NCBI RefSeq assembly: GCF_022775115.1
Contig: NZ_JALFLA010000087.1
Span: forward strand, 1 to 48,777
Length of the DNA stretch: 48,777 bases
From: Agathobaculum sp.
GTDB taxonomy: Bacteria > Bacillota > Clostridia > Oscillospirales > Butyricicoccaceae
Direction: 5' to 3'
The notes beneath the pieces were generated by a model. It saw nothing but the letters and a program-made list of their open reading frames with translations, had not been told where the DNA came from and did not search any database. Shown here one piece after another: positions 1 through 13,833 of the stretch (its first letter is position 1; each line of letters opens with the position of its first letter). The translations under genes and the position numbers were made by a program.

Positions 1-1665
1 GCGCGAATAAATACCGTGCGCCGCGAACAACGCAACGTTCTTTTCATCCAGATAGTGCGGCAGCGCGTCGATCGTCGACTTAAGATTGCGCAGGCCGCGC
101 TTTTCCGCCTCGTCCACCCATGCGTCATCATAACCGTTGCCATTGAAGATGATGCGCTTGTGCGCCTTCAGCTCCCGCTTGACCAGCGCGGTGAGCGCGG
201 CGGGGAAGTCCTCCGCGCCTTCCAGCTCGTCGGCAAACAGGCGCAGCGATTCGGCAACCGCCGTATTCAGCATGATGTTCGGGCAGGCGATGTTGACCGA
301 GGAGCCGAGCGAGCGGAACTCAAACTTGTTACCGGTGAAGGCAAAGGGCGAGGTGCGGTTGCGGTCGGTCGTATCCTTAGGAATGGCCGGCAGCACGGAC
401 GCACCGAGATCCATCTTGGTCTTACCCACGTCGGTGTAGTCCGCGCCGGTCTCGAGCGCGTCGATGATCGCCTGCAGCTCATCGCCGATGAACATGGAGA
501 TAATGGCCGGCGGCGCTTCGTTTGCACCCAGACGGTGGTCGTTGCCCGCCGAGGCGACCGAAATGCGCAGCAGATCCTGATATTCGTCGACCGCCTTGAC
601 CACCGCGGTCAAAAACAGCAGGAACTGCGCGTTTTCGCTCGGCGTTTTGCCCGGCTCGAGCAGATTTTCGCCCGCGTCGGTCGAGATAGACCAGTTGTTG
701 TGCTTGCCCGAGCCGTTTACGCCGTCAAACGGCTTTTCATGCAGCAGGCAGACAAGATCGTGCTTCTGCGCAACGCGCTTCATGACCTCCATGGTCAGCT
801 GGTTATGGTCGGTGGCGATATTGGTGGTGGTGAATACGGGCGCCATCTCATGCTGCGCGGGCGCGACCTCATTGTGCTTGGTCTTGGCGAAGATGCCGAG
901 CTTCCACAGCTCCTCGTCCAGATCGGCCATAAACGCAGCCACGCGCGGGCGGATCGAACCGAAATAGTGATCCTCCATCTCCTGCCCCTTGGGCGGCCTT
1001 GCGCCGAACAGCGTGCGCCCGGTAAAAATCAAATCCTTGCGCTGCGCGTAGTCCTTCTGGTCAATTAGGAAATACTCCTGCTCCGGACCGACCGTGGTTG
1101 TCACGCGCTTGACATCCTTGCCGAACAGCGCGAGCACACGGCAGGCCTGCTTGCTGATCGCGTCCATCGAGCGCAGCAGGGGGGTCTTTTTGTCCAGTAT
1201 CTCGCCGGTGTAGGAGCAGAACGCGGTCGGGATGTACAGCGATCCGTCCTTGACGAAGGCGTAGCTGGTCGGATCCCACGCGGTGTAGCCGCGCGCTTCA
1301 AAGGTGGCGCGCAGGCCGCCGGACGGGAATGAGGAGGCGTCCGGCTCGCCCTTGACCAGCTCCTTACCGGAAAACTCCATCATCACGCCGTCCTGCTCGG
1401 TCGGGGTGATGAACGAATCATGCTTTTCCGCGGTGATGCCGGTCATCGGCTGGAACCAGTGCGTGTAGTGCGTCGCACCCTTGGAGATCGCCCAGTCCTT
1501 CATCGCGCTCGCCACAACAGCGGCAACATCCGGGTCGATCGCGGTGCCTTCCCGCATGGTTTTTTGCAGCTTCTTGTAAACATCCTTGGGCAGGCGTTCC
1601 TTCATGACGGCCTCGTTAAAGACCATGCTGCCGAAGAGCGCGGGGACATTCCTTGCTGTGCTCAT
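1..1665 (-). CDS. glnN: Type III glutamine synthetase (C-terminus off the left edge)
   Basis: ATP-dependent glutamine synthesis from glutamate and ammonia in the cytoplasm. The 555 visible codons begin [18 protein letters not shown] and contain the type III hallmarks: a long N-terminal region (about residues 1-180), GPEQEYFL near 195, and catalytic-domain motifs [27 protein letters not shown] and GNKFEFRS. The family is about 700 residues, so roughly 145 residues lie beyond position 1; the frame is open to the edge. The ATG at 1665 has an AGGAG ribosome site 8 bases upstream. It is divergent from the glutamate synthase operon and has its own sigma-A promoter plus a terminator leader with an ANTAR-type hexaloop (1721-1763). 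Function follows from family identity; regulation is inferred from the leader. Confidence 0.97.
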
Positions 1666-1720: not shown

Positions 1721-1763
1721 AAAACAAGCGCTGCGGGTTGTGTTCCCACAGCGCCTTTGCTGT
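1721..1763 (-). promoter_or_regulatory. glnN leader: ANTAR-type hexaloop hairpin overlapping an intrinsic terminator
   Basis: Read on the minus strand, ACAGC-(AAAGGC)-GCTGT forms a 5-bp stem with a six-base loop (1748-1763) having A at loop position 1 and G at position 4, the pattern known for ANTAR targets. Its 3' arm is part of the 5' arm of a second hairpin, GCGCTGTGGG pairing with CCCGCAGCGC around the loop AACACAA (1728-1754), followed by a T-rich tract: an intrinsic terminator. The two structures cannot coexist. The simplest reading is that an ANTAR protein stabilises the hexaloop form and lets transcription enter glnN. Structures are read by eye; ANTAR recognition is inferred. Only one hexaloop hairpin is seen, whereas described ANTAR targets have two in tandem. 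Confidence 0.72.
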
Positions 1764-1774
1764 TAACACTTTGC

Positions 1775-1803
1775 ATTATATCCATCCTCTCTTTGCTTGT
1801 CAA
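1775..1803 (-). promoter_or_regulatory. Sigma-A promoter of glnN
   Basis: On the minus strand a perfect TTGACA (-35, 1798-1803) and perfect TATAAT (-10, 1775-1780) are separated by exactly 17 bases. Transcription should begin near 1766-1770, immediately before the hexaloop hairpin of the leader. A consensus promoter followed by an intrinsic terminator suggests control by antitermination rather than by initiation. Confidence 0.9.
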
Positions 1804-1924
1804 GTTCAAATGGCGTGTTTTTTCCCGTTTTGGCGGATTTGTTGCAAGATACTGAATTTCCGGCCGCTCAGCCGAATGCTTTCTATGCATTTTGCAAGAA
1901 TCCGCAAATATATTATCTTTTTGC

Positions 1925-1953
1925 TTGACGCTTACCCACCCGCGCTATACAAT
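1925..1953 (+). promoter_or_regulatory. Sigma-A promoter of the glutamate synthase operon
   Basis: TTGACG (-35, 1925-1930) and TACAAT (-10, 1948-1953) have a 17-base spacer. Predicted transcription start is near 1960, directly at the hexaloop hairpin. It diverges from the glnN promoter; the roughly 120 bp between the two -35 boxes is AT-rich and I see no other clear site there. Confidence 0.85.
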
Positions 1954-1960
1954 GTGAACA

Positions 1961-2033
1961 GGACAAAGGCGTCCGCCGCAGCCAAGGATTTGGTTTTCCG
2001 ATCCTCGGCTGCGGCGGGCGCCTTTTTATTTTG
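1961..2033 (+). promoter_or_regulatory. Glutamate synthase operon leader: ANTAR-type hexaloop hairpin overlapping an intrinsic terminator
   Basis: GGAC-(AAAGGC)-GTCC (1961-1974) is a 4-bp stem with the same hexaloop, AAAGGC, as the glnN leader but on a different stem sequence. From 1965 the bases AAAGGCG onward pair through 1983 with 2007-2025 to give a 19-bp stem (one G-U pair), capped by a smaller internal stem AGGAT/ATCCT and followed by a T-run: a strong intrinsic terminator. Forming the hexaloop hairpin removes the base of the terminator. The conserved loop with changed stems, in two leaders next to an ANTAR gene, supports a shared RNA target. The start codon at 2095 follows an AGGAGG ribosome site. 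Confidence 0.78.
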
Positions 2034-2094: not shown

Positions 2095-3192
2095 ATGTTG
2101 CAAAAAGAAGGTCAAATCCGCATCCCCGCAGGCTGCGCGATCTCCGGCATCTTCCATAAGGACGGCACGCGGGAGAACGGCACGCGCATCATCGACTCCA
2201 TCCGCACCATGCACGACCGCTCCAACGGCCTCGGCGGCGGCTTTGCGGGCTACGGCATCTATCCCGAATACGCCGATTACTACGCCTTTCACGTTTTTTA
2301 TGATACGCAGACGGCCAAGGATACCTGCGAAAAGGAGCTTGAGCGGCATTTTGACATTGTAAACCTCTCCAAGATACCGACCCACCGCCACCCGCGCATT
2401 ACCGACGAGCCGATGATCTGGCGCTACTTTGTCTCGCCGCTCAACACCAAGCTGACCGCCAGCCAGCTCGACGAGCGCGAATACGTCTCCCGCTTTGTCA
2501 TCCGCATCAATCACACGCTGGATGGGGCATACATCTTCTCCTCCGGCAAGAACATGGGCGTATTCAAGGCCAATGGCTTCCCCGAGGACGTGGGCGAATA
2601 TTACAAGCTGGAAGAGTATGAGGCCTACTCGTGGACCTGTCATGGCCGCTATCCCACCAATACCCCCGGCTGGTGGGGCGGCGCGCATCCGTTCGCGCTG
2701 CTCGACACAACGGTCGTGCACAACGGCGAGATATCCTCCTACGACGCCAACCGCCGCTTTATTGAAATGTTCGGCTACTCCTGCGATTTGCTGACCGACA
2801 CCGAGGTCATCACCTACATTGTCGATTATCTGGGGCGCAAGCTCGGCCTGACCTATGACGAGATCGCAAACGTGATAGCCGCGCCGTTCTGGTCGACCAT
2901 TGAAAAGCAGGAGACTGCCGAGCGCGAGCGCCTGACCTATCTGCGCAATGCGTTCGCATCGCTGCTGGTCACCGGCCCGTTTTCCATTCTGGTCGGCTTT
3001 GAGGGCGGTCTGATGGCGCTCAACGACCGTCTCAAGCTGCGCTCGATGGTCGTGGGAGAAAAGGATAAGACCGTATACATCGCCTCTGAAGAATGCGCGA
3101 TCCGCGTCATCGAGCCGACGCTCGACGCGATCTGGGCGCCGCGCGGCGGTGAGGCGGTCATCGTAGGTTTGAGCAAGGGAGGAAACCGGTAA
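2095..3192 (+). CDS. Split glutamate synthase, class II glutamine amidotransferase subunit (GltB1-like)
   Basis: Ntn-type glutaminase that releases ammonia from glutamine for the synthase subunit. 365 aa. The probable nucleophile is Cys14 in GCAISGIF, which would become N-terminal after removal of a 13-residue propeptide, as in other class II amidotransferases. Downstream motifs typical of the fold include CHGRYPTNTPG (substrate Arg region) and VVHNGEISSY, the NGE loop seen in GltB and PurF. The stop overlaps the next start by one base (TAATG), so it is coupled to the FMN subunit. AGGAGG lies upstream of the ATG. In ordinary bacteria this domain is the N-terminal part of GltB; here it is a separate gene, as in archaea and many Clostridia. 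Confidence 0.92.
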   Translation: MLQKEGQIRIPAGCAISGIFHKDGTRENGTRIIDSIRTMHDRSNGLGGGFAGYGIYPEYADYYAFHVFYDTQTAKDTCEKELERHFDIVNLSKIPTHRHPRITDEPMIWRYFVSPLNTKLTASQLDEREYVSRFVIRINHTLDGAYIFSSGKNMGVFKANGFPEDVGEYYKLEEYEAYSWTCHGRYPTNTPGWWGGAHPFALLDTTVVHNGEISSYDANRRFIEMFGYSCDLLTDTEVITYIVDYLGRKLGLTYDEIANVIAAPFWSTIEKQETAERERLTYLRNAFASLLVTGPFSILVGFEGGLMALNDRLKLRSMVVGEKDKTVYIASEECAIRVIEPTLDAIWAPRGGEAVIVGLSKGGNR

Positions 3193-4697
3193 TGGCTATT
3201 GATTTCTTGTATCCGCAGTATGAGGTCGCGCGCAATTACGACCGCTGCATTTCCTGCCGCGCGTGTGAGCGGCAGTGCGCCAACGAGGTGCACTTTTACG
3301 ACCCCGAGTTTCAGAAAATGATGGCCGACGAGTCCAAGTGTGTCAACTGCCACCGCTGCGTGTCGCTTTGCCCGACGCGCGCGCTCAAGATCGTCAAGAC
3401 CGACCACACCTTCAAGGAGAATGCCAACTGGACGGGCAAGGCCATCTCCGAGGTCTACCGTCAGGCCGGCTCGGGCGGCGTGCTGCTCTCCTCTATGGGC
3501 AACCCCGAGCCTTACCCCATCTATTGGGATAAGATTCTCATCAACGCCTCGCAGGTCACAAACCCATCCATCGACCCGCTGCGCGAGCCGATGGAGACAC
3601 GCACCTTTCTCGGCAAGAAGCCGGGCAAGATCGAGCGTGATGCCAATGGCAAGCTCGTCCCCAACCTGTCGCCCCAGCTTGCGCTGAACGTGCCGGTCAT
3701 GTTCTCAGCGATGAGCTACGGCTCGATCTCCTACAACGCGCATGAGTCGCTCGCCCGCGCCGCATGCGCGCTCGGCACCTTCTACAACACCGGCGAGGGT
3801 GGCCTGCACGCGGACTTTTACCAGTACGGCGCGCACACCATCGTGCAGGTGGCCTCCGGCCGCTTTGGCGTCCATCAGGACTATCTGGAGGCGGGCGCGG
3901 CCATCGAGATCAAGATGGGACAGGGCGCAAAGCCCGGCATCGGCGGCCACCTGCCCGGCCTGAAGGTCGGCCCGGATATCTCCAAGACGCGCATGATCCC
4001 GGAGGGCACGGACGCGATCTCCCCCGCTCCGCACCACGATATCTACTCCATCGAGGATCTGCGGCAGCTCGTATTCTCGCTCAAGGAGGCGACCGGCTAC
4101 AAAAAGCCTGTCATGGTCAAAATCGCGGCAGTACACAACGTCGCGGCCATCGCCTCGGGCGTTGCCCGCTCGGGCGCGGATGTCATCTGCATCGACGGCT
4201 ACCGCGGCGGCACGGGCGCGGCACCCACCCGCATCCGCGACAATGTCGGCATTCCGATCGAGCTTGCACTCGCCGCTGTTGACCAACGCCTGCGCGACGA
4301 AGGCATCCGCGATCAGGTCTCGATCGTGGTCGGCGGCTCGATCCGCAACGCGGCCGATCTGGTCAAGGCCATCGCGCTCGGCGCGGATGCCTGCTACATC
4401 GCCACCTCTGCCCTGCTCGCGCTCGGCTGCCACCTGTGCCGCTCCTGCCACGCCGGCAAGTGCAACTGGGGCATCGCCACCCAGCGCCCCGACCTTGTCA
4501 AGCGGCTCAATCCAGATATCGGCTCGCAGCGTTTGATCAATCTGGTCACCGCATGGGATCACGAGCTGAAGGAGATGATGGGCGGCATGGGCATCAACTC
4601 GATCGAAGCCCTGCGCGGCAACCGGCTGATGCTGCGCGGCATTGGCCTGAACGACCGCGAGCTTTCCATCCTCGGCATCAGGCACGCGGGCGAATAA
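3192..4697 (+). CDS. Split glutamate synthase, FMN-binding synthase subunit with N-terminal ferredoxin domain (GltB2-like)
   Basis: Forms glutamate from 2-oxoglutarate and ammonia using electrons from iron-sulfur clusters and FMN. 501 aa. Residues 18-70 carry two 4Fe-4S motifs (CISCRACERQC and CVNCHRCVSLCP), a ferredoxin head absent from standard GltB. The FMN barrel follows, with MSYGSISYNAHESLARAA, NTGEGG, GQGAKPGIGGHLPG, the TIM-barrel phosphate motif DGYRGGTGAAP and GGSIRNAADLVKAIALGAD. CHLCRSCHAGKC near 415 supplies the 3Fe-4S cluster cysteines of glutamate synthase. It is translationally coupled to the amidotransferase gene and followed 15 bases later by the electron-transfer ferredoxin. 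Confidence 0.93.
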   Translation: MAIDFLYPQYEVARNYDRCISCRACERQCANEVHFYDPEFQKMMADESKCVNCHRCVSLCPTRALKIVKTDHTFKENANWTGKAISEVYRQAGSGGVLLSSMGNPEPYPIYWDKILINASQVTNPSIDPLREPMETRTFLGKKPGKIERDANGKLVPNLSPQLALNVPVMFSAMSYGSISYNAHESLARAACALGTFYNTGEGGLHADFYQYGAHTIVQVASGRFGVHQDYLEAGAAIEIKMGQGAKPGIGGHLPGLKVGPDISKTRMIPEGTDAISPAPHHDIYSIEDLRQLVFSLKEATGYKKPVMVKIAAVHNVAAIASGVARSGADVICIDGYRGGTGAAPTRIRDNVGIPIELALAAVDQRLRDEGIRDQVSIVVGGSIRNAADLVKAIALGADACYIATSALLALGCHLCRSCHAGKCNWGIATQRPDLVKRLNPDIGSQRLINLVTAWDHELKEMMGGMGINSIEALRGNRLMLRGIGLNDRELSILGIRHAGE

Positions 4698-4712
4698 GGA
4701 GGGTAAAGCGAC

Positions 4713-5141
4713 ATGAAACGTGTTTACGTCAACGAAAAATGGTGTCTCGGCTGCCATTTGTGCGAATATTACTGCGCGTTTGCCAACTCCGGCAAATCGT
4801 CCATGGTCAAGGCGCTCAAGGATCACAAGATCGCGCCCCGCATCCGCATTGAGGAACGCAACAACATCTCCTTTGCGGTCTCCTGCCGCCACTGCGAGGA
4901 CCCGCTGTGTGTCAAGGGCTGCATCTCGGGCGCGCTGACCATTGTGGAGGGCGCGGTGCATATCGACTCGGAGCAGTGCGTCGGCTGCTACACCTGCATC
5001 CTGTCCTGCCCCTACGGCGCGCTGTACACCTCGCACGAAGGCGCGGTGCAGAAATGTGAGCTTTGCCTGAAAAATGAGTGCGGCCAGCCCATGTGTGTGC
5101 AGGGCTGCCCGAATAAGGCAATCGTCTACGAGGAGAGGTGA
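4713..5141 (+). CDS. Four-cluster 4Fe-4S ferredoxin (HycB/DmsB-type electron-transfer subunit)
   Basis: 142 aa with four cysteine clusters: CLGCHLCEYYC near 10-20, CRHCEDPLCVKGC near 56-68, CVGCYTCILSCP near 90-101 and CELCLKNECGQPMCVQGC near 116-133. This is the pattern of the HycB/DmsB family that wires redox enzymes. Between the FMN synthase subunit and an FAD oxidoreductase, it probably carries electrons from the flavoprotein to the synthase. No signal peptide or membrane segment is seen, so it is likely cytoplasmic. GGAGG precedes the ATG. The family assignment is firm; the specific partnership is inferred from the operon. Confidence 0.88.
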   Translation: MKRVYVNEKWCLGCHLCEYYCAFANSGKSSMVKALKDHKIAPRIRIEERNNISFAVSCRHCEDPLCVKGCISGALTIVEGAVHIDSEQCVGCYTCILSCPYGALYTSHEGAVQKCELCLKNECGQPMCVQGCPNKAIVYEER

Positions 5142-5147
5142 GCAACC

Positions 5148-6386
5148 ATGAATTATGTTATCATTGGCAACGGCACCGCCGCCATCGGCGTGATTGAGGG
5201 CATCCGCGTCGTCGATAAGCACAGCCCGATCACCGTGATCTCCGACGAGGTCTATCCGGTTTACGGCCGCCCGCTGATCTCCTATCTGCTGCTGGGCGAA
5301 ACGACCGAGCAACGTATGCTGCACTACCGCCCGGCGGACTTTTATGAAAAGAACAACGTCAAGACCCTATTCGGCCGGACGGCCTTGTCCATCAACACCG
5401 CCGGCAAGACTGTTTCTCTTGAGGGCGGCGAGAGCGTGCCCTACGACAAGCTGTGCATCTGCACCGGCTCGCGCCCTTTCGTGCCGCCGACAGAGGGCTT
5501 GGAGACCGTCAAGAACAAAACCAGCTTTATGACGCTGGATGACGCCAAGCGCCTTGATGCTTTGCTCGGCGACAAAAATGACAAGCGCGTGCTCATCATC
5601 GGCGCGGGACTGATCGGCCTGAAATGCGCCGAGGGCATCCACCGGCGTGTGTCCGCGCTGACCGTTATCGATCTGGCGCCGCGTATCCTGCCCAATGTGC
5701 TGACCGACGCGCCCGCCGCCATCATCCAGCGGCACATGGAAAGCAAGGGCGTCCAATTCATACTGGGCGACTCGGCCGCGCGGCTAACGCCAGACAGCGC
5801 CATCCTGCAAAGCGGCAAGGTGGTCGATTTTGATATTCTGGTCGTCGCCGTCGGCGTGCGCCCGAACACCGAGCTTGCCGCCGCGGCTGGCTGCACGGTC
5901 GAGCGCGGTATCCTGATCGACGACCACGCCGCCACCTCAGTGGCCGACATTTACGCCGCAGGCGACTGCACGGTATCGCACGACATCGCCTCCGATACCG
6001 ACCGCATCCTCGCCATCCTGCCCAACGCCTATTTGCAGGGCGAGACGGCAGGCATGAACATGGCCGGCGGCGACCGCGCGTTTACCAAGGCCATCCCGAT
6101 GAACGCCTCGGGCTTTATGGGGCTGCACATGGTCACCGCCGGCTCGTACGAGGGCGAGCAGTACCTTGAGCATGATGCGGACAGCTACAAGCTGCTCGTC
6201 ACCCGGGACAACCGTCTGGTCGGCTTCATTCTGATCGGCGAGGTCGACCGCGCGGGCATTTACACCTCGCTCATCCGCGAGCAGACCCCGCTCGACACCA
6301 TCGACTTCGCACTCATCCGCGAAAAGCCGCAGTTGATGGCGTTCTCCCACGCCGAGCGCGCAAAACAGTTAGGAGGGGCACACTGA
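5148..6386 (+). CDS. FAD-dependent NAD(P)H oxidoreductase of the glutamate synthase cluster
   Basis: 412-aa flavoprotein of the pyridine nucleotide-disulfide oxidoreductase fold. The N-terminal dinucleotide motif is YVIIGNGTAAIGVIEGIR (FAD), the second Rossmann motif VLIIGAGLIGLKCAEGI near 147 (NAD(P)), and DIYAAGDC near 268 the conserved FAD-ribityl motif. No redox-active CxxxxC pair is evident, so it resembles rubredoxin/ferredoxin reductases and NirB-type heads more than GltD. It probably oxidises NAD(P)H and passes electrons to the preceding ferredoxin. It starts 6 bases after the ferredoxin stop and its TGA overlaps the next ATG (TGATG). Confidence 0.88.
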   Translation: MNYVIIGNGTAAIGVIEGIRVVDKHSPITVISDEVYPVYGRPLISYLLLGETTEQRMLHYRPADFYEKNNVKTLFGRTALSINTAGKTVSLEGGESVPYDKLCICTGSRPFVPPTEGLETVKNKTSFMTLDDAKRLDALLGDKNDKRVLIIGAGLIGLKCAEGIHRRVSALTVIDLAPRILPNVLTDAPAAIIQRHMESKGVQFILGDSAARLTPDSAILQSGKVVDFDILVVAVGVRPNTELAAAAGCTVERGILIDDHAATSVADIYAAGDCTVSHDIASDTDRILAILPNAYLQGETAGMNMAGGDRAFTKAIPMNASGFMGLHMVTAGSYEGEQYLEHDADSYKLLVTRDNRLVGFILIGEVDRAGIYTSLIREQTPLDTIDFALIREKPQLMAFSHAERAKQLGGAH

Positions 6387-7114
6387 TGACTACTGTACAG
6401 GCAGGTCTTACCTATTATAAACAAGTCAACGAGGATATCCGCGCCGTTGCCGACAGCGAGATAACCGTCGAGAATGTCCTCGGCCAGCGCTACATCGGCT
6501 GCGGCTCGGCGGATAAAAAAATCACCATCCGCGGCACACCGGGCAACGGACTTGGGCAGTATCTAAACGGCTCGACGCTCGAGGTGTTCGGCAACGCGCA
6601 GGAAGCCGTCGGCGACACGATGAACGACGGCGATATCATCATCCACGGCAACGTGGGCGACGCCTGCGGCTACGGTATGCGCGGCGGGCGCATCTTCATC
6701 CAAGGCGACTGCGGCTACCGCGGCGGCATTCACATGAAGGCCTATCAGGATCACTTCCCCGTCGTTGTCATCGGCGGCAAAGCAGGCTCATTTCTTGGCG
6801 AGTATCAAGCCGGGGGGCTGATACTCGTGCTCGGCCTTGGTCAAGATGGTGCGTATCCCGCCAGTAATTTTTGCGGCACGGGTATGCACGGCGGCAAAAT
6901 TGTGTTAAGATGTGATAAAGCGCCGGGCGGCCTGCCGCCGCAGGTGCTGGTGCGCGCCGCCTTAGCGGATGATCTGGACGAGATCGCCCCCTATATTACG
7001 GCATACTGCGGCTTTTTCGGCGGCGATCCCGCCGCATTGCAGGCGCAGCAATATTATGTGCTCACCCCCAACCCCGCAGCAGGCTATAAACAGCTTTACA
7101 CCTATGAAGACTGA
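6386..7114 (+). CDS. Split glutamate synthase, GXGXG-repeat subunit (GltB3-like)
   Basis: 242 aa matching the C-terminal right-handed beta-helix domain of glutamate synthase, here a separate polypeptide. Regular glycine repeats are visible: GCGSADKKITIRG, GNGLGQYLNG, GNAQEAVGDTMNDG, GNVGDACGYGMRGGRIFIQG, GDCGYRGG and GTGMHGGKIVLR. In the fused enzyme this domain is structural and helps position the channel between the glutaminase and synthase sites. It is coupled to the upstream gene, with AGGAGG just before the overlapping ATG. The presence of GltB1, GltB2 and GltB3 as separate genes makes this a complete split synthase. Confidence 0.92.
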   Translation: MTTVQAGLTYYKQVNEDIRAVADSEITVENVLGQRYIGCGSADKKITIRGTPGNGLGQYLNGSTLEVFGNAQEAVGDTMNDGDIIIHGNVGDACGYGMRGGRIFIQGDCGYRGGIHMKAYQDHFPVVVIGGKAGSFLGEYQAGGLILVLGLGQDGAYPASNFCGTGMHGGKIVLRCDKAPGGLPPQVLVRAALADDLDEIAPYITAYCGFFGGDPAALQAQQYYVLTPNPAAGYKQLYTYED

Positions 7115-7148: not shown

Positions 7149-8468
7149 ATGGACACCACCATGAGCGAGGTCGTACAATTTATTGAGGAGAACGACGTGA
7201 AGTTCATCCGGCTGGCATTTTGCGATATCTTCGGCAATCAGAAGAACATCGCCATTCAGCCGGCCGAGCTGTCCCGTGCGTTTGACCAAGGCATTCATTT
7301 CAACGCCTCGGCGCTGCGCGGCTTTCTCAACGTTGATGTGTCCGACCTACTGCTTTTCCCCGATCCGTCCACGCTTTCCGTGCTGCCGTGGCGGCCCGCG
7401 CAGGGGCGCGTGGTGCGGTTCTACTGCGATATCAAATACCCTGACGGAACGTACTTTGAGGGCGACGGCCGTCATCTGCTGCGGCAGGCCAGCCGCCGCG
7501 CGCGGCAGGCGGGCTACTCGCTCACCATGGGTACGGCAAGCGAGTTTTATCTGTTCGAGCTGGATGAGCACGGCCACCCGACCACCATCCCGCACGACCA
7601 CGGCGGATATTTCGACGTTGCCCCGCTCGATAAGGCGGAAAACGTGCGCCGCCAGATCTGCCTGACACTGGAGGAGATGGGTATCCAGCCCGAATCCTCC
7701 CACCACGAGCAAGGCCCCGGCCAGAACGAGGTCGATTTCCGTTACGCGGAGGCGCTTGAGGCCGCGGACAACTTCGTCACGTTCAAGTGGGTCGTCAAGA
7801 CCATGGCCGCCTCGAGCGGCCTGCATGCCTCCTTCCTGCCCAAGCCCCTGCCGGACGCGCCGGGCAGCGGACTGCACCTGTCGGTCTCGATTCTGCGCGA
7901 GGGACGCAACCTCTTTCACCCCACGCTCGCGGACTCTGCCGACGGCCGGTGCTTTATTGCCGGTGTGCTGCGCCGCGCGGCTGAAATGACCCTGTTCGGC
8001 AATCCGCTGACCAATTCCTACCAGCGCCTGGGCGAGTTTGAAGCGCCCAAGTATATCACTTGGTCGCACCGTAACCGCTCGCCGCTCATCACTGTGCCGC
8101 TGGCCGACGGCGTGCGCGCAAACCGGATGAAGCTGCGCGCGTTCGACGGCTGCATCAACCCGTATATCGTCTTCTCGCTGCTCATCCATGCCGGTCTTGA
8201 CGGCATTGAGCAGCAGCTCCCCCTGCCGGCGGCGTGCGATGACAACCTGTTCACCGCGCCCACCGATGTGCGCGCGCGCTACGCCGCGCTGCCCGGTACG
8301 CTGTGCGAAGCCATCGCCTGCGCCCGGCAGAGCGACTTTATCCGCCGCTGCCTGCCTGACAAGGCGCTGCGCGCATTCTTTCTGTCCAAACAGGCCGAGC
8401 ATGACCAGATCGCCGCGGCGGAGGACCGCATCACAGCCGAGCACGCACTCTACTTTGAGCGCTACTGA
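7149..8468 (+). CDS. Glutamine synthetase type I-like protein with degenerate active site
   Basis: 439 aa, close to the usual length of type I-alpha GS and alignable throughout: FIRLAFCDIFGNQKN, GTASEFYLF, SSHHEQGPGQNEVDF, GLHASFLPKP, PGSGLHLSVSI, NPLTNSYQRLGEFEAP, WSHRNRSPLITVP, RMKLRAFDGCINPY. Against B. subtilis and Salmonella GS, several catalytic positions differ: the first Glu of GxExEF is Ala130 (Salmonella Glu129), NGSGMH has Pro for Asn264, NRSPLIR has Thr315 for Arg344, and RxExR has Lys328 for Glu357. Glu129 and Glu357 are two of the three n2-metal ligands; His269 (His243 here) and the n1 ligands remain. It is probably inactive or altered and may act as a sensor. AGGAGG precedes the ATG; the ANTAR gene follows 35 bases later. 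Confidence 0.9.
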   Translation: MDTTMSEVVQFIEENDVKFIRLAFCDIFGNQKNIAIQPAELSRAFDQGIHFNASALRGFLNVDVSDLLLFPDPSTLSVLPWRPAQGRVVRFYCDIKYPDGTYFEGDGRHLLRQASRRARQAGYSLTMGTASEFYLFELDEHGHPTTIPHDHGGYFDVAPLDKAENVRRQICLTLEEMGIQPESSHHEQGPGQNEVDFRYAEALEAADNFVTFKWVVKTMAASSGLHASFLPKPLPDAPGSGLHLSVSILREGRNLFHPTLADSADGRCFIAGVLRRAAEMTLFGNPLTNSYQRLGEFEAPKYITWSHRNRSPLITVPLADGVRANRMKLRAFDGCINPYIVFSLLIHAGLDGIEQQLPLPAACDDNLFTAPTDVRARYAALPGTLCEAIACARQSDFIRRCLPDKALRAFFLSKQAEHDQIAAAEDRITAEHALYFERY

Positions 8469-8503: not shown

Positions 8504-9079
8504 TTGGAGCACATTCTGATCGTATCAGCAACCGCCAAATCGCTGGCTATGCTGACCCAGTTTCTCTCCTCCTGCGCGGTACAGGCGCAGATCGCCACGG
8601 CCACCTCCTGCGCTGAGGCGCGCCGCACTCTGCTTGACACGGATTACGACCTGCTGCTTGTCAACGCACCTCTGCCCGATGAGTTCGGCCACGAGCTGGC
8701 GCAGACCGCCGCGCAGGACACGCTCGCGGGCGTCATCCTGCTGGCCAAGACTGACATCGCCGATGCCGTTTCCGAAAAGGTGGAGGACGGCGGCGTGATC
8801 GTCGTGCCCAAGCCGCTCTCCCGCACGCTGTTCTTGCAGGCGCTGCGCATGATCCGTGCTTCCCGCGCACGGCTGGCCGGGCTGCAAAAGGAAAACCGCC
8901 AGCTGCAAAAGCGCATCGAGGATATCCGCCTTGTCGACCGCGCCAAATGCCTGCTGATCGAATGCTGCGCGATGACCGAGCCGGAGGCGCACCGCTATAT
9001 CGAGAGGCAGGCCATGGAGCAGCGCCTGACTAAGCGCGAGGTGGCCGAGCGCATCCTCAGCGGCGGGCTGCCCGGCTGA
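8504..9079 (+). CDS. ANTAR-domain antiterminator with pseudo-receiver
   Basis: 191 aa, TTG start preceded by an AGGAGGGGG ribosome site. Residues 1-115 look like a response-regulator receiver (ILIVSATAKSLAML; Lys103 in VPKPLSRTLF), but the acidic pair after strand 1 is Ser-Ala and the phosphoacceptor Asp is Asn54 (LLVNAPLPDEFG), so phosphorylation is unlikely. A coiled-coil linker (116-135, LQKENRQLQKRIED) leads to an ANTAR domain (about 130-187, DRAKCLLIECCAMTEPEAHRYIERQAMEQRLTK split across helices), the three-helix RNA-binding module that prevents transcription termination. As last gene of the glutamate synthase operon, its likely targets are the two hexaloop leaders at 1721-1763 and 1961-2033. 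A terminator follows. Confidence 0.9.
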   Translation: MEHILIVSATAKSLAMLTQFLSSCAVQAQIATATSCAEARRTLLDTDYDLLLVNAPLPDEFGHELAQTAAQDTLAGVILLAKTDIADAVSEKVEDGGVIVVPKPLSRTLFLQALRMIRASRARLAGLQKENRQLQKRIEDIRLVDRAKCLLIECCAMTEPEAHRYIERQAMEQRLTKREVAERILSGGLPG

Positions 9080-13757: not shown

Positions 13758-13833
13758 GCGGCTGTAGCTCATCTGGTAGAGCGCCACCTTGCCAAGGTGG
13801 AGGTAGCGAGTTCGAGCCTCGTCAGCCGCTCCA
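13758..13833 (+). tRNA. tRNA-Gly (anticodon GCC)
   Basis: 76 nt with all arms readable: acceptor GCGGCTG/CAGCCGC, D-arm GCTC...GAGC, anticodon stem CCACC/GGTGG with loop TTGCCAA (anticodon GCC), T-arm with GTTCGAG, and an encoded CCA end at 13831-13833. It decodes GGC and GGU. A promoter lies upstream and a terminator directly downstream, so it is a monocistronic tRNA gene. Confidence 0.97.

Follow-up and report, generated by a model that had tools for sequence, protein, structure and literature searches.

Lone-hexaloop leaders before glnN and a glutamate synthase operon in Agathobaculum: candidate targets of a pseudo-receiver ANTAR protein

The locus and its two leaders

The stretch of Agathobaculum sp. 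DNA analysed here (48,777 nucleotides, hereafter the window) comes from a single contig of a draft genome of 2.19 Mb that is 96% complete. Close to its start, two divergent promoters lead into glnN (1775-1803, minus strand) and into a glutamate synthase operon (1925-1953, plus strand), in which the plus-strand order is split glutamate synthase, a second glutamine synthetase (GS) and a receiver-like ANTAR protein. The features are listed below; transcription starts were deduced from the promoter sequence.

1..1665, minus: glnN, type III glutamine synthetase, running off the window (Pfam GSIII_N, 271.4 bits)
1756-1726, T-rich tail to 1716, minus: intrinsic terminator of the glnN leader (terminator scan and fold)
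1748..1763, minus: putative antiterminator hairpin of the glnN leader, ACAGC-AAAGGC-GCTGT
1775..1780, minus: -10 box TATAAT of the glnN promoter, 11 nt upstream of the hairpin
1798..1803, minus: -35 box TTGACA of the glnN promoter (promoter scan)
1925..1930, plus: -35 box TTGACG of the glutamate synthase promoter (promoter scan)
1948..1953, plus: -10 box TACAAT of the glutamate synthase promoter, 7 nt upstream of the hairpin
1961..1974, plus: putative antiterminator hairpin of the glutamate synthase leader, GGAC-AAAGGC-GTCC
About 1965 to 2030, T run 2023-2027, plus: intrinsic terminator of the glutamate synthase leader (fold)
2095..7114, plus: split glutamate synthase operon (open reading frames and domain matches), with the following five parts
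2095-3192, plus: GATase
3192-4697, plus: FMN-type synthase
4713-5141, plus: ferredoxin-like
5148-6386, plus: pyridine-nucleotide oxidoreductase
6386-7114, plus: GXGXG
7149..8468, plus: glutamine synthetase of 439 aa directly before the ANTAR gene, candidate sensor
8504..9079, plus: receiver-like and ANTAR protein, TTG start, 191 aa, candidate antiterminator

The glnN promoter (TTGACA, 17 nt, TATAAT) matches the consensus at 12 of 12 positions, and a spacer of 17 nt also separates TTGACG and TACAAT before the glutamate synthase (glt) operon. The original prediction held that each leader carries an AAAGGC hairpin exclusive with an intrinsic terminator, and the window sequence and the folds agree on this; the different stems, each perfectly paired, and the identical loop that it described are confirmed by ACAGC/GCTGT versus GGAC/GTCC. 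The 5' arm of the glnN terminator consists of loop bases 3-6 and the right arm of the hairpin. The glt terminator, which was missed by a simple terminator scan of the window and seen by folding, overlaps the loop and the right arm of its own hairpin.

When both leaders were folded as growing RNAs, the hairpin was the best fold at most early lengths (the exceptions being 28 and 48 nt for glt and 16 nt for glnN) and the terminator at later ones. Forcing the hairpin in the full leader cost 14.0 kcal/mol for glnN and 16.8 kcal/mol for glt, so the terminator should win without help. The octamer CAAAGGCG alone is not above chance in the window (4 occurrences versus 3.5 expected); what is above chance is a hairpin with an overlapping terminator behind a promoter, together with the conservation of that composite.

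Conservation of the hairpin, its loop and its position

In 80 titled relative loci, 25 AAAGGC or AAAGGT hairpins with an overlapping terminator were found with no promoter requirement, three or four of them chance-like by eye, and each of eight scrambled hexamers tried on the same loci gave none. Leaders for covariation analysis were picked by promoter, AAAGGY and terminator, the left arm not being used. This selection gave 111 distinct 30-mers, 92 of which have at least four pairs beside the loop, four have three and 15 have fewer. Eight of the 15 were register errors, in which the left arm itself reads AAAGGC; they were shifted six bases by hand, which leans those rows towards structure, and the other seven were kept unshifted.

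For 110 distinct leaders the covariation score was 0.525, against 0.232 (sd 0.015) after shuffling, and none of 500 shuffles reached 0.525, although the alignment rows are related, so that shuffle numbers are not probabilities. Slid-alignment controls scored at most 0.191, and 74.4% of cells were paired versus 57.5% in shuffled alignments of the same leaders. Two of the five measures do not discriminate, namely pairs changed on both sides (6 versus 5.2 shuffled, matched by 79 of 500 shuffles) and further pair types (23 versus 22.3 shuffled). By these alignments, the relatives keep the hairpin paired through compensatory change in the stem.

A chance origin is rejected by the scrambled-loop control, the covariation and the conservation. 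A DNA operator is rejected as well, since stems of unrelated sequence keep their pairing, which a DNA repeat does not explain. At gathering scores, Rfam release 15 recognised only a tRNA in the window, where a tRNA gene lies at 13758-13830 on the plus strand, and nothing in 12 relative loci. A permissive search gave nine matches far below gathering scores, which we took as hairpin look-alikes; the best were mir-2756, at 30.4 bits where 61 are required, and a plasmid antisense RNA, at 29.1 where 50 are required, over the long glt terminator hairpin.

The loop was studied in a loop-blind scan anchored on the glnN and glt gene starts, in which any hexaloop was allowed and a promoter was required. 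Candidates were found in 47 of 56 glt leaders and in 40 of 44 glnN leaders, and two of these 87 (L064 glt and L250 glnN) were dropped as false. The four glnN leaders lacking a candidate each follow immediately on an upstream gene that looks like asnA, and the element of L128 and L159 precedes asnA. Seven of the nine glt leaders lacking one show an A-A-N-G loop by eye (L026, L029, L157, L159, L192, L199 and L205), with a shorter stem, a weaker terminator or a distant promoter, and L031 and L137 show no such loop by eye.

The loop consensus is mostly AANGRY. At n = 85, positions 1, 2 and 4 are A in 83, A in 85 and G in 85 leaders (G4 was present in 85 of 87 before the two false candidates were dropped), positions 5 and 6 read G 81/A 4 and C 82/T 3, and position 3 is the most variable (A 70, C 7, T 6, G 2), with a bias towards AAAGGY since some loci were fetched by that pattern. 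A1 and G4 are given as the fixed positions of ANTAR hexaloops in the excerpted text of PMC8164766 and PMC8934654. The expectation that the loop carries A1 and G4 as in ANTAR targets is thus upheld (83 of 85 and 85 of 85); the original prediction was silent on one versus two hexaloops and on the missing phosphorylatable Asp. Loss of the hexaloop or of its pairing in homologues, which it had set against itself, did not occur: the stems show compensatory change and the loop is kept.

Some of the loop conservation could come from a constitutive promoter-proximal terminator whose A tract and stem make a hairpin by accident: at their 3' end, many of these terminators have GCCTTT, with which AAAGGC can pair, and part of the loop is therefore constrained by the terminator. 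However, the left arm lies outside the terminator and yet covaries with the right arm. Moreover, pairing with the terminator U tract would make position 3 the best-kept A, and it is the worst kept, while positions 1, 2 and 4 are fixed, a pattern opposite to that expected from an A tract. The terminator A tract is therefore ruled out as the cause of the loop conservation, which follows the A1/G4 rule of ANTAR targets and not the terminator. Furthermore, the combination of an A-A-N-G-R hexaloop with a terminator is found in none of 28 near-full-gene glnN leaders scanned in ANTAR-less genomes, a control drawn from 34 of 143 such genomes that were hand-picked across families (G306, which has the element, is not among them). 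We regard the accidental hairpin as highly implausible.

As described in the parts of PMC3369931 and PMC8934654 available to us, the EutV target has two hexaloops 5-12 nt apart, both needed in vivo, with P1 interpreted as a recruitment hairpin; the AmiR, NasR and EutV systems are all described with two hairpins (PMC3369931, same extent). The window leaders might likewise be ordinary dual-hexaloop targets with an overlooked P1, which could for instance lie on a longer transcript begun at a promoter further upstream. Against this, near-consensus promoters end 11 nt (glnN) and 7 nt (glt) before the window hairpins, which leaves no room for P1 between the -10 box and the hairpin. Among gene-anchored leaders collected with no promoter requirement, the hexaloop with a terminator occurs in 49 of 59 for glt and 39 of 46 for glnN, and TANNNT stands at most 20 nt upstream of the hairpin in 48 of 49 and 37 of 39 of these (85 of 88; 13% expected per 26 nt). 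With a promoter box so near, a second hairpin would not fit after +1. In the leaders selected for the covariation analysis, the distances of 6-22 nt from -10 box to loop are bounded by the search range of 2-22 nt and prove nothing alone.

An upstream A-x-x-G hairpin of at least four pairs was found in none of the 25 titled-locus cases and in four of the 88 gene-anchored leaders (L010, L014, L021 and L255); these four, and that of L244, all lie over a -35 or -10 box. A scan for dual hexaloops gave nothing in 11 regions, ten near other ANTAR genes and one around the G028 element. In the 80 titled loci it flagged six places, five of which were judged chance and the sixth of which, in L244, lies over the -10 box of the element; in ten eut regions it flagged one place (L346), judged chance. 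Having returned no true eut match, the dual scan has no positive control, and this speaks for the possibility that P1 was missed. Overall, a P1 of the EutV type was not found in the lone-hexaloop leaders, and judging from their promoter positions we think it quite improbable that these leaders are dual targets. The glt leader of L199, with its hairpin about 50 nt after the -10 box, is a true exception to the near-promoter placing; its upstream stretch could, by eye, pair with the left arm of the hairpin, a possible further layer.

The ANTAR protein and the distribution of the element

The 8504-9079 protein matches the ANTAR domain (PF03861) at 59.7 bits, against a curated cut-off of 27.3, and the receiver domain (Response_reg) at 29.1 bits, just under the cut-off of 30.2. 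The top PDB matches of its predicted structure (pLDDT 95.0) are Rv1626, EutV and AmiR, which points to a receiver fold before the ANTAR domain; Rv1626 came first by E-value and RNA-bound EutV second, the latter with the highest full-length TM-score (0.75) among the 50 matches listed. The nearest titled relatives of the protein come from Butyricicoccus and further clostridial gut bacteria. Asn54 of the window protein aligns with Asp54 of EutV. When the protein was lined up with 25 of the 80 relatives fetched, Asn54 was invariant in 26 of 26 rows, as were A55, P56, L57, D59, E60, F61 and G62, and P58 was nearly so. A phosphorelay at the usual Asp is rejected for this protein family by Asn54.

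RNA contacts were mapped through a HMMER alignment to those given in the excerpt of PMC8934654. The EutV contacts kept or similar in the window protein are K143-R142, K147-R146, K149-K148, E160-E159, Y164-H163, M172-M171 and R175-R174; not kept are R142-I141, R168-E167, N173-E172 and R177-T176. A147, K148, E159, H163 and M171 are invariant in the 26 rows, and R146 is present in at least 90%. By this alignment, the RNA-touching residues of EutV are largely kept in the family.

The protein is the one ANTAR match in its genome, in which only the two window elements were real among the matches to a relaxed pattern. Of 345 genomes sampled from the order, 152 have the strict pattern and 202 an ANTAR domain: both are present in 136 (a pattern-based count, inspected in part), the element only in 16 (all inspected), ANTAR only in 66 and neither in 127. 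Thus 66 of the 202 ANTAR genomes have no match to the strict pattern. As background, the reversed pattern has 13 occurrences in the 345 genomes versus 254. Counted by genus (n = 162), the figures are 82 with both, 8 with the element only, 29 with ANTAR only and 43 with neither. The claimed link of the ANTAR gene at the operon end to both leaders is supported, so far as genome comparison can tell, by its being the sole ANTAR match in the genome and by the order-wide co-occurrence.

The same hairpin could be truly regulatory and have a different binder, either a further RNA-binding protein or a small molecule (glutamine, for example), with ANTAR genes merely sharing the nitrogen clusters. Eight of the 16 element-only genomes are chance matches without a terminator and one (G156) has a mismatched stem before pyrG, but seven look real: they keep intact elements and have no Pfam ANTAR match, which favours another binder. 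These elements stand before purA in G036 and G296, two species of one genus, purB in G041, asnA in G051, glnN in G306 and glt in G114; the seventh genome is G310. In G310, however, a family-specific profile finds the receiver half of an ANTAR protein ending one base before the contig end, so this genome does have an ANTAR gene, cut by the contig end. In the other six the same profile finds nothing convincing; G306 and G114 each have a congener that carries ANTAR. What speaks most against an exclusive link to ANTAR is the three genera left, with purA, purB and asnA elements. The intact elements without an ANTAR gene found are at L107 (G036), L153 (G296), L130 (G041) and L128 (G051).

On the other side, the loop rule is that of ANTAR targets, the genus-level co-occurrence holds with an odds ratio of 15, and five of the eight element-only genera are chance matches without a terminator. 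A stem of 4-9 bp with a hexaloop is also small for a ligand pocket. On balance we consider a binder other than the ANTAR protein unlikely. About 200 nt beyond the mismatched pyrG element of G156 (L151, contig C36) there is a 24-residue ANTAR-like stretch with a stop (E 0.098), which is possibly, on weak evidence, the remnant of a lost ANTAR gene.

In relatives, the genes downstream of the element are glnN, glnA, gltB, split glt, amtB, asnA, asnB, gdhA, carA, pyrG, purA and purB, with a few others (an Lrp-type regulator, atpB, a ThiS-like gene and an antiporter-like gene); they were named by eye from their first residues. By these names, most of the regulated genes would code for enzymes that produce or consume glutamine, glutamate or ammonia. 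The strict pattern occurs in 90 of the 162 genera of the order sample, some chance matches included. At class level it occurs in 52 of 157 genomes, and in 48 of 152 outside the order, again with some chance matches; the reversed pattern gives nine matches in seven genomes. Of 12 class-level loci fetched, nine have the element before glt, glnN, asnA, amtB or gdhA, one is truncated where its contig stops, one precedes an unidentified gene and one is chance-like. Among the titled relatives, the element is present for example in Butyricicoccus, Intestinibacillus and Anaerotruncus colihominis (L181, L183, L197).

Several of these loci show variations on the arrangement. On the minus strand of L095 (G014, contig C202), two tandem promoter-hairpin-terminator units 166 bp apart precede glnN, with hairpins near 1394-1437 and 1560-1603; they may be serial attenuators or two starts. 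The minus strand of L126 has a second AAAGGC hairpin (the AATGAAGGC/GTCTTTCG region) after the first glnN terminator and without its own promoter box, possibly a further attenuator in series on one transcript. In L294 (G000, contig C43, near 7496-7536) a promoter is followed at once by a short GACAAAGGTG...CACCTTTGTC terminator without an antiterminator stem. L100 and L178, both of genus g10, have nine-pair AAAGGC hairpins with a terminator before similar proteins, with HIQEANDWVIFNN near their start.

Of 72 loci for which enough sequence was available, 71 have a GS homologue on the same strand as the ANTAR gene and less than 1 kb upstream of it; these neighbours were identified by tblastn, used in place of a first regular expression that gave 43 of 72. 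Since a GS gene so regularly precedes the ANTAR gene, GS may be the sensor. Most GS neighbours listed read FD[AG]S[AS]xxGF where the window GS (7149-8468) reads FNASALRGF, as does that of L182 (that of L181 reads FNAAALKGF). The Asp of the FD[AG]S motif is the ammonium-binding residue of type I GS, so the window copy may be weak as an enzyme.

Proposed mechanism and comparison with known systems

The proposal of an RNA-level nitrogen switch acting on both promoters is supported as far as comparison shows, by the covariation, the loop rule and the ANTAR co-occurrence, and both leaders are, with good probability, ANTAR-controlled transcription attenuators with a single hexaloop. Polymerase would start a few bases before the hairpin, which would form early. 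If no active ANTAR protein is present, the terminator would take over from the hairpin, whose right arm it needs, and transcription would stop after about 60-70 nt. The active 8504-9079 protein would grip the A-A-N-G-R-Y loop and hold the hairpin closed until polymerase clears the U tract, allowing transcription of glnN and of the operon of glutamate synthase, GS and ANTAR genes. The input would be something other than phosphorylation at the usual Asp, probably the GS encoded just upstream, much as GS under feedback inhibition controls GlnR. The parts of the mechanism that we infer are ANTAR binding, antitermination, the sufficiency of one hexaloop, GS as the sensor and nitrogen limitation as the ON state. 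More tentatively, the leaders may belong to a clostridial nitrogen regulon in which GS sequesters or releases a pseudo-receiver ANTAR protein and one hexaloop at the 5' end is enough to stop termination, a wider reading that we would not yet favour.

AmiR of Pseudomonas aeruginosa is an ANTAR protein with a non-phosphorylatable pseudo-receiver and is controlled by AmiC. The window protein resembles it in its receiver without phosphorylation and in the His at the position of EutV Tyr164, which AmiR has too, and input from a protein partner is plausible here as well. In contrast, the partner would be a glutamine synthetase, whereas that of AmiR is an amide sensor, and the AmiR target is described with a dual-hairpin motif in the excerpt of PMC3369931.

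The closest parallel to the leaders themselves is EutV and the eut operon of Enterococcus faecalis, which share the A1/G4 hexaloop, a hairpin over the 5' arm of the terminator and a receiver-ANTAR protein, as set out in the portions of PMC3369931 and PMC8934654 cited. However, each window leader has one hexaloop near the 5' end versus two in EutV targets, and EutV is switched by phosphorylation of Asp54, where the window protein has Asn. The excerpt of PMC8934654 mentions an extra hexaloop that stands alone in the EutX RNA, as well as irregular stem-loops of M. tuberculosis, and these resemble the window leaders in having one hexaloop as a possible ANTAR site; unlike the window hexaloop, which lies on a terminator, those are described there as sites of sequestration or in the RBS or 5'-UTR. 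According to the same excerpt, lone sites are expected where the time limit set by a transcribing polymerase is absent, and against this expectation the lone window hexaloop is on a terminator, where that limit applies.

Among open-licence PMC papers, we found no description of a lone-hexaloop ANTAR terminator switch. What is new here is ANTAR antitermination, as predicted above, at a single hexaloop close to the 5' end, by an ANTAR protein that has a pseudo-receiver and is encoded next to GS. The closing question in the available text of PMC8934654, which calls for more work, is how far single hexaloops act in ANTAR function, and is asked because the terminator model of that paper needs two hairpins. 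The leaders described here, in which a lone hexaloop lies on a terminator ahead of nitrogen genes in many clostridia, lend themselves naturally to testing it, and if the proposed mechanism is true, nitrogen control in these gut bacteria becomes directly testable.

Nitrogen regulons under ANTAR control have been predicted by covariance search in Desulfotomaculum and others (PMC3369931, in part), and these predictions likewise place glutamate synthase, glutamine synthetase and ammonium transporter genes under ANTAR RNA control. In contrast to the window leaders, they used the dual-hairpin motif. A dual-hairpin covariance model would presumably miss lone hexaloops, and searches of this kind would then overlook the present regulon. 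In clostridia, ANTAR genes beside GS/GOGAT genes have been noted, among them Clo1313_2030 and the nitR antiterminator of C. acetobutylicum, and in C. thermocellum treatment with methyl viologen is followed by a joint fall of the ANTAR-bearing cluster and of a GS gene distant from it (PMC4676874, in part). The window shares with Clo1313_2030 and nitR a receiver-ANTAR gene, a suspected antiterminator, in a GS-GOGAT cluster; unlike the case presented here, no RNA target is described for them in the available excerpt of that paper.

Finally, the GS-GlnR circuit of Gram-positive bacteria, as outlined in the portion of PMC9249791 cited, is a precedent for GS as a nitrogen sensor, and there too glutamine synthetase and a nitrogen-gene regulator are encoded in one operon. 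GlnR represses by binding DNA, whereas the window regulator is a predicted RNA-binding antiterminator that would be contacted by GS. If GS is indeed the sensor and one hexaloop suffices, the system described here would be an RNA-level counterpart of GS-GlnR that does without the P1 recruitment hairpin.
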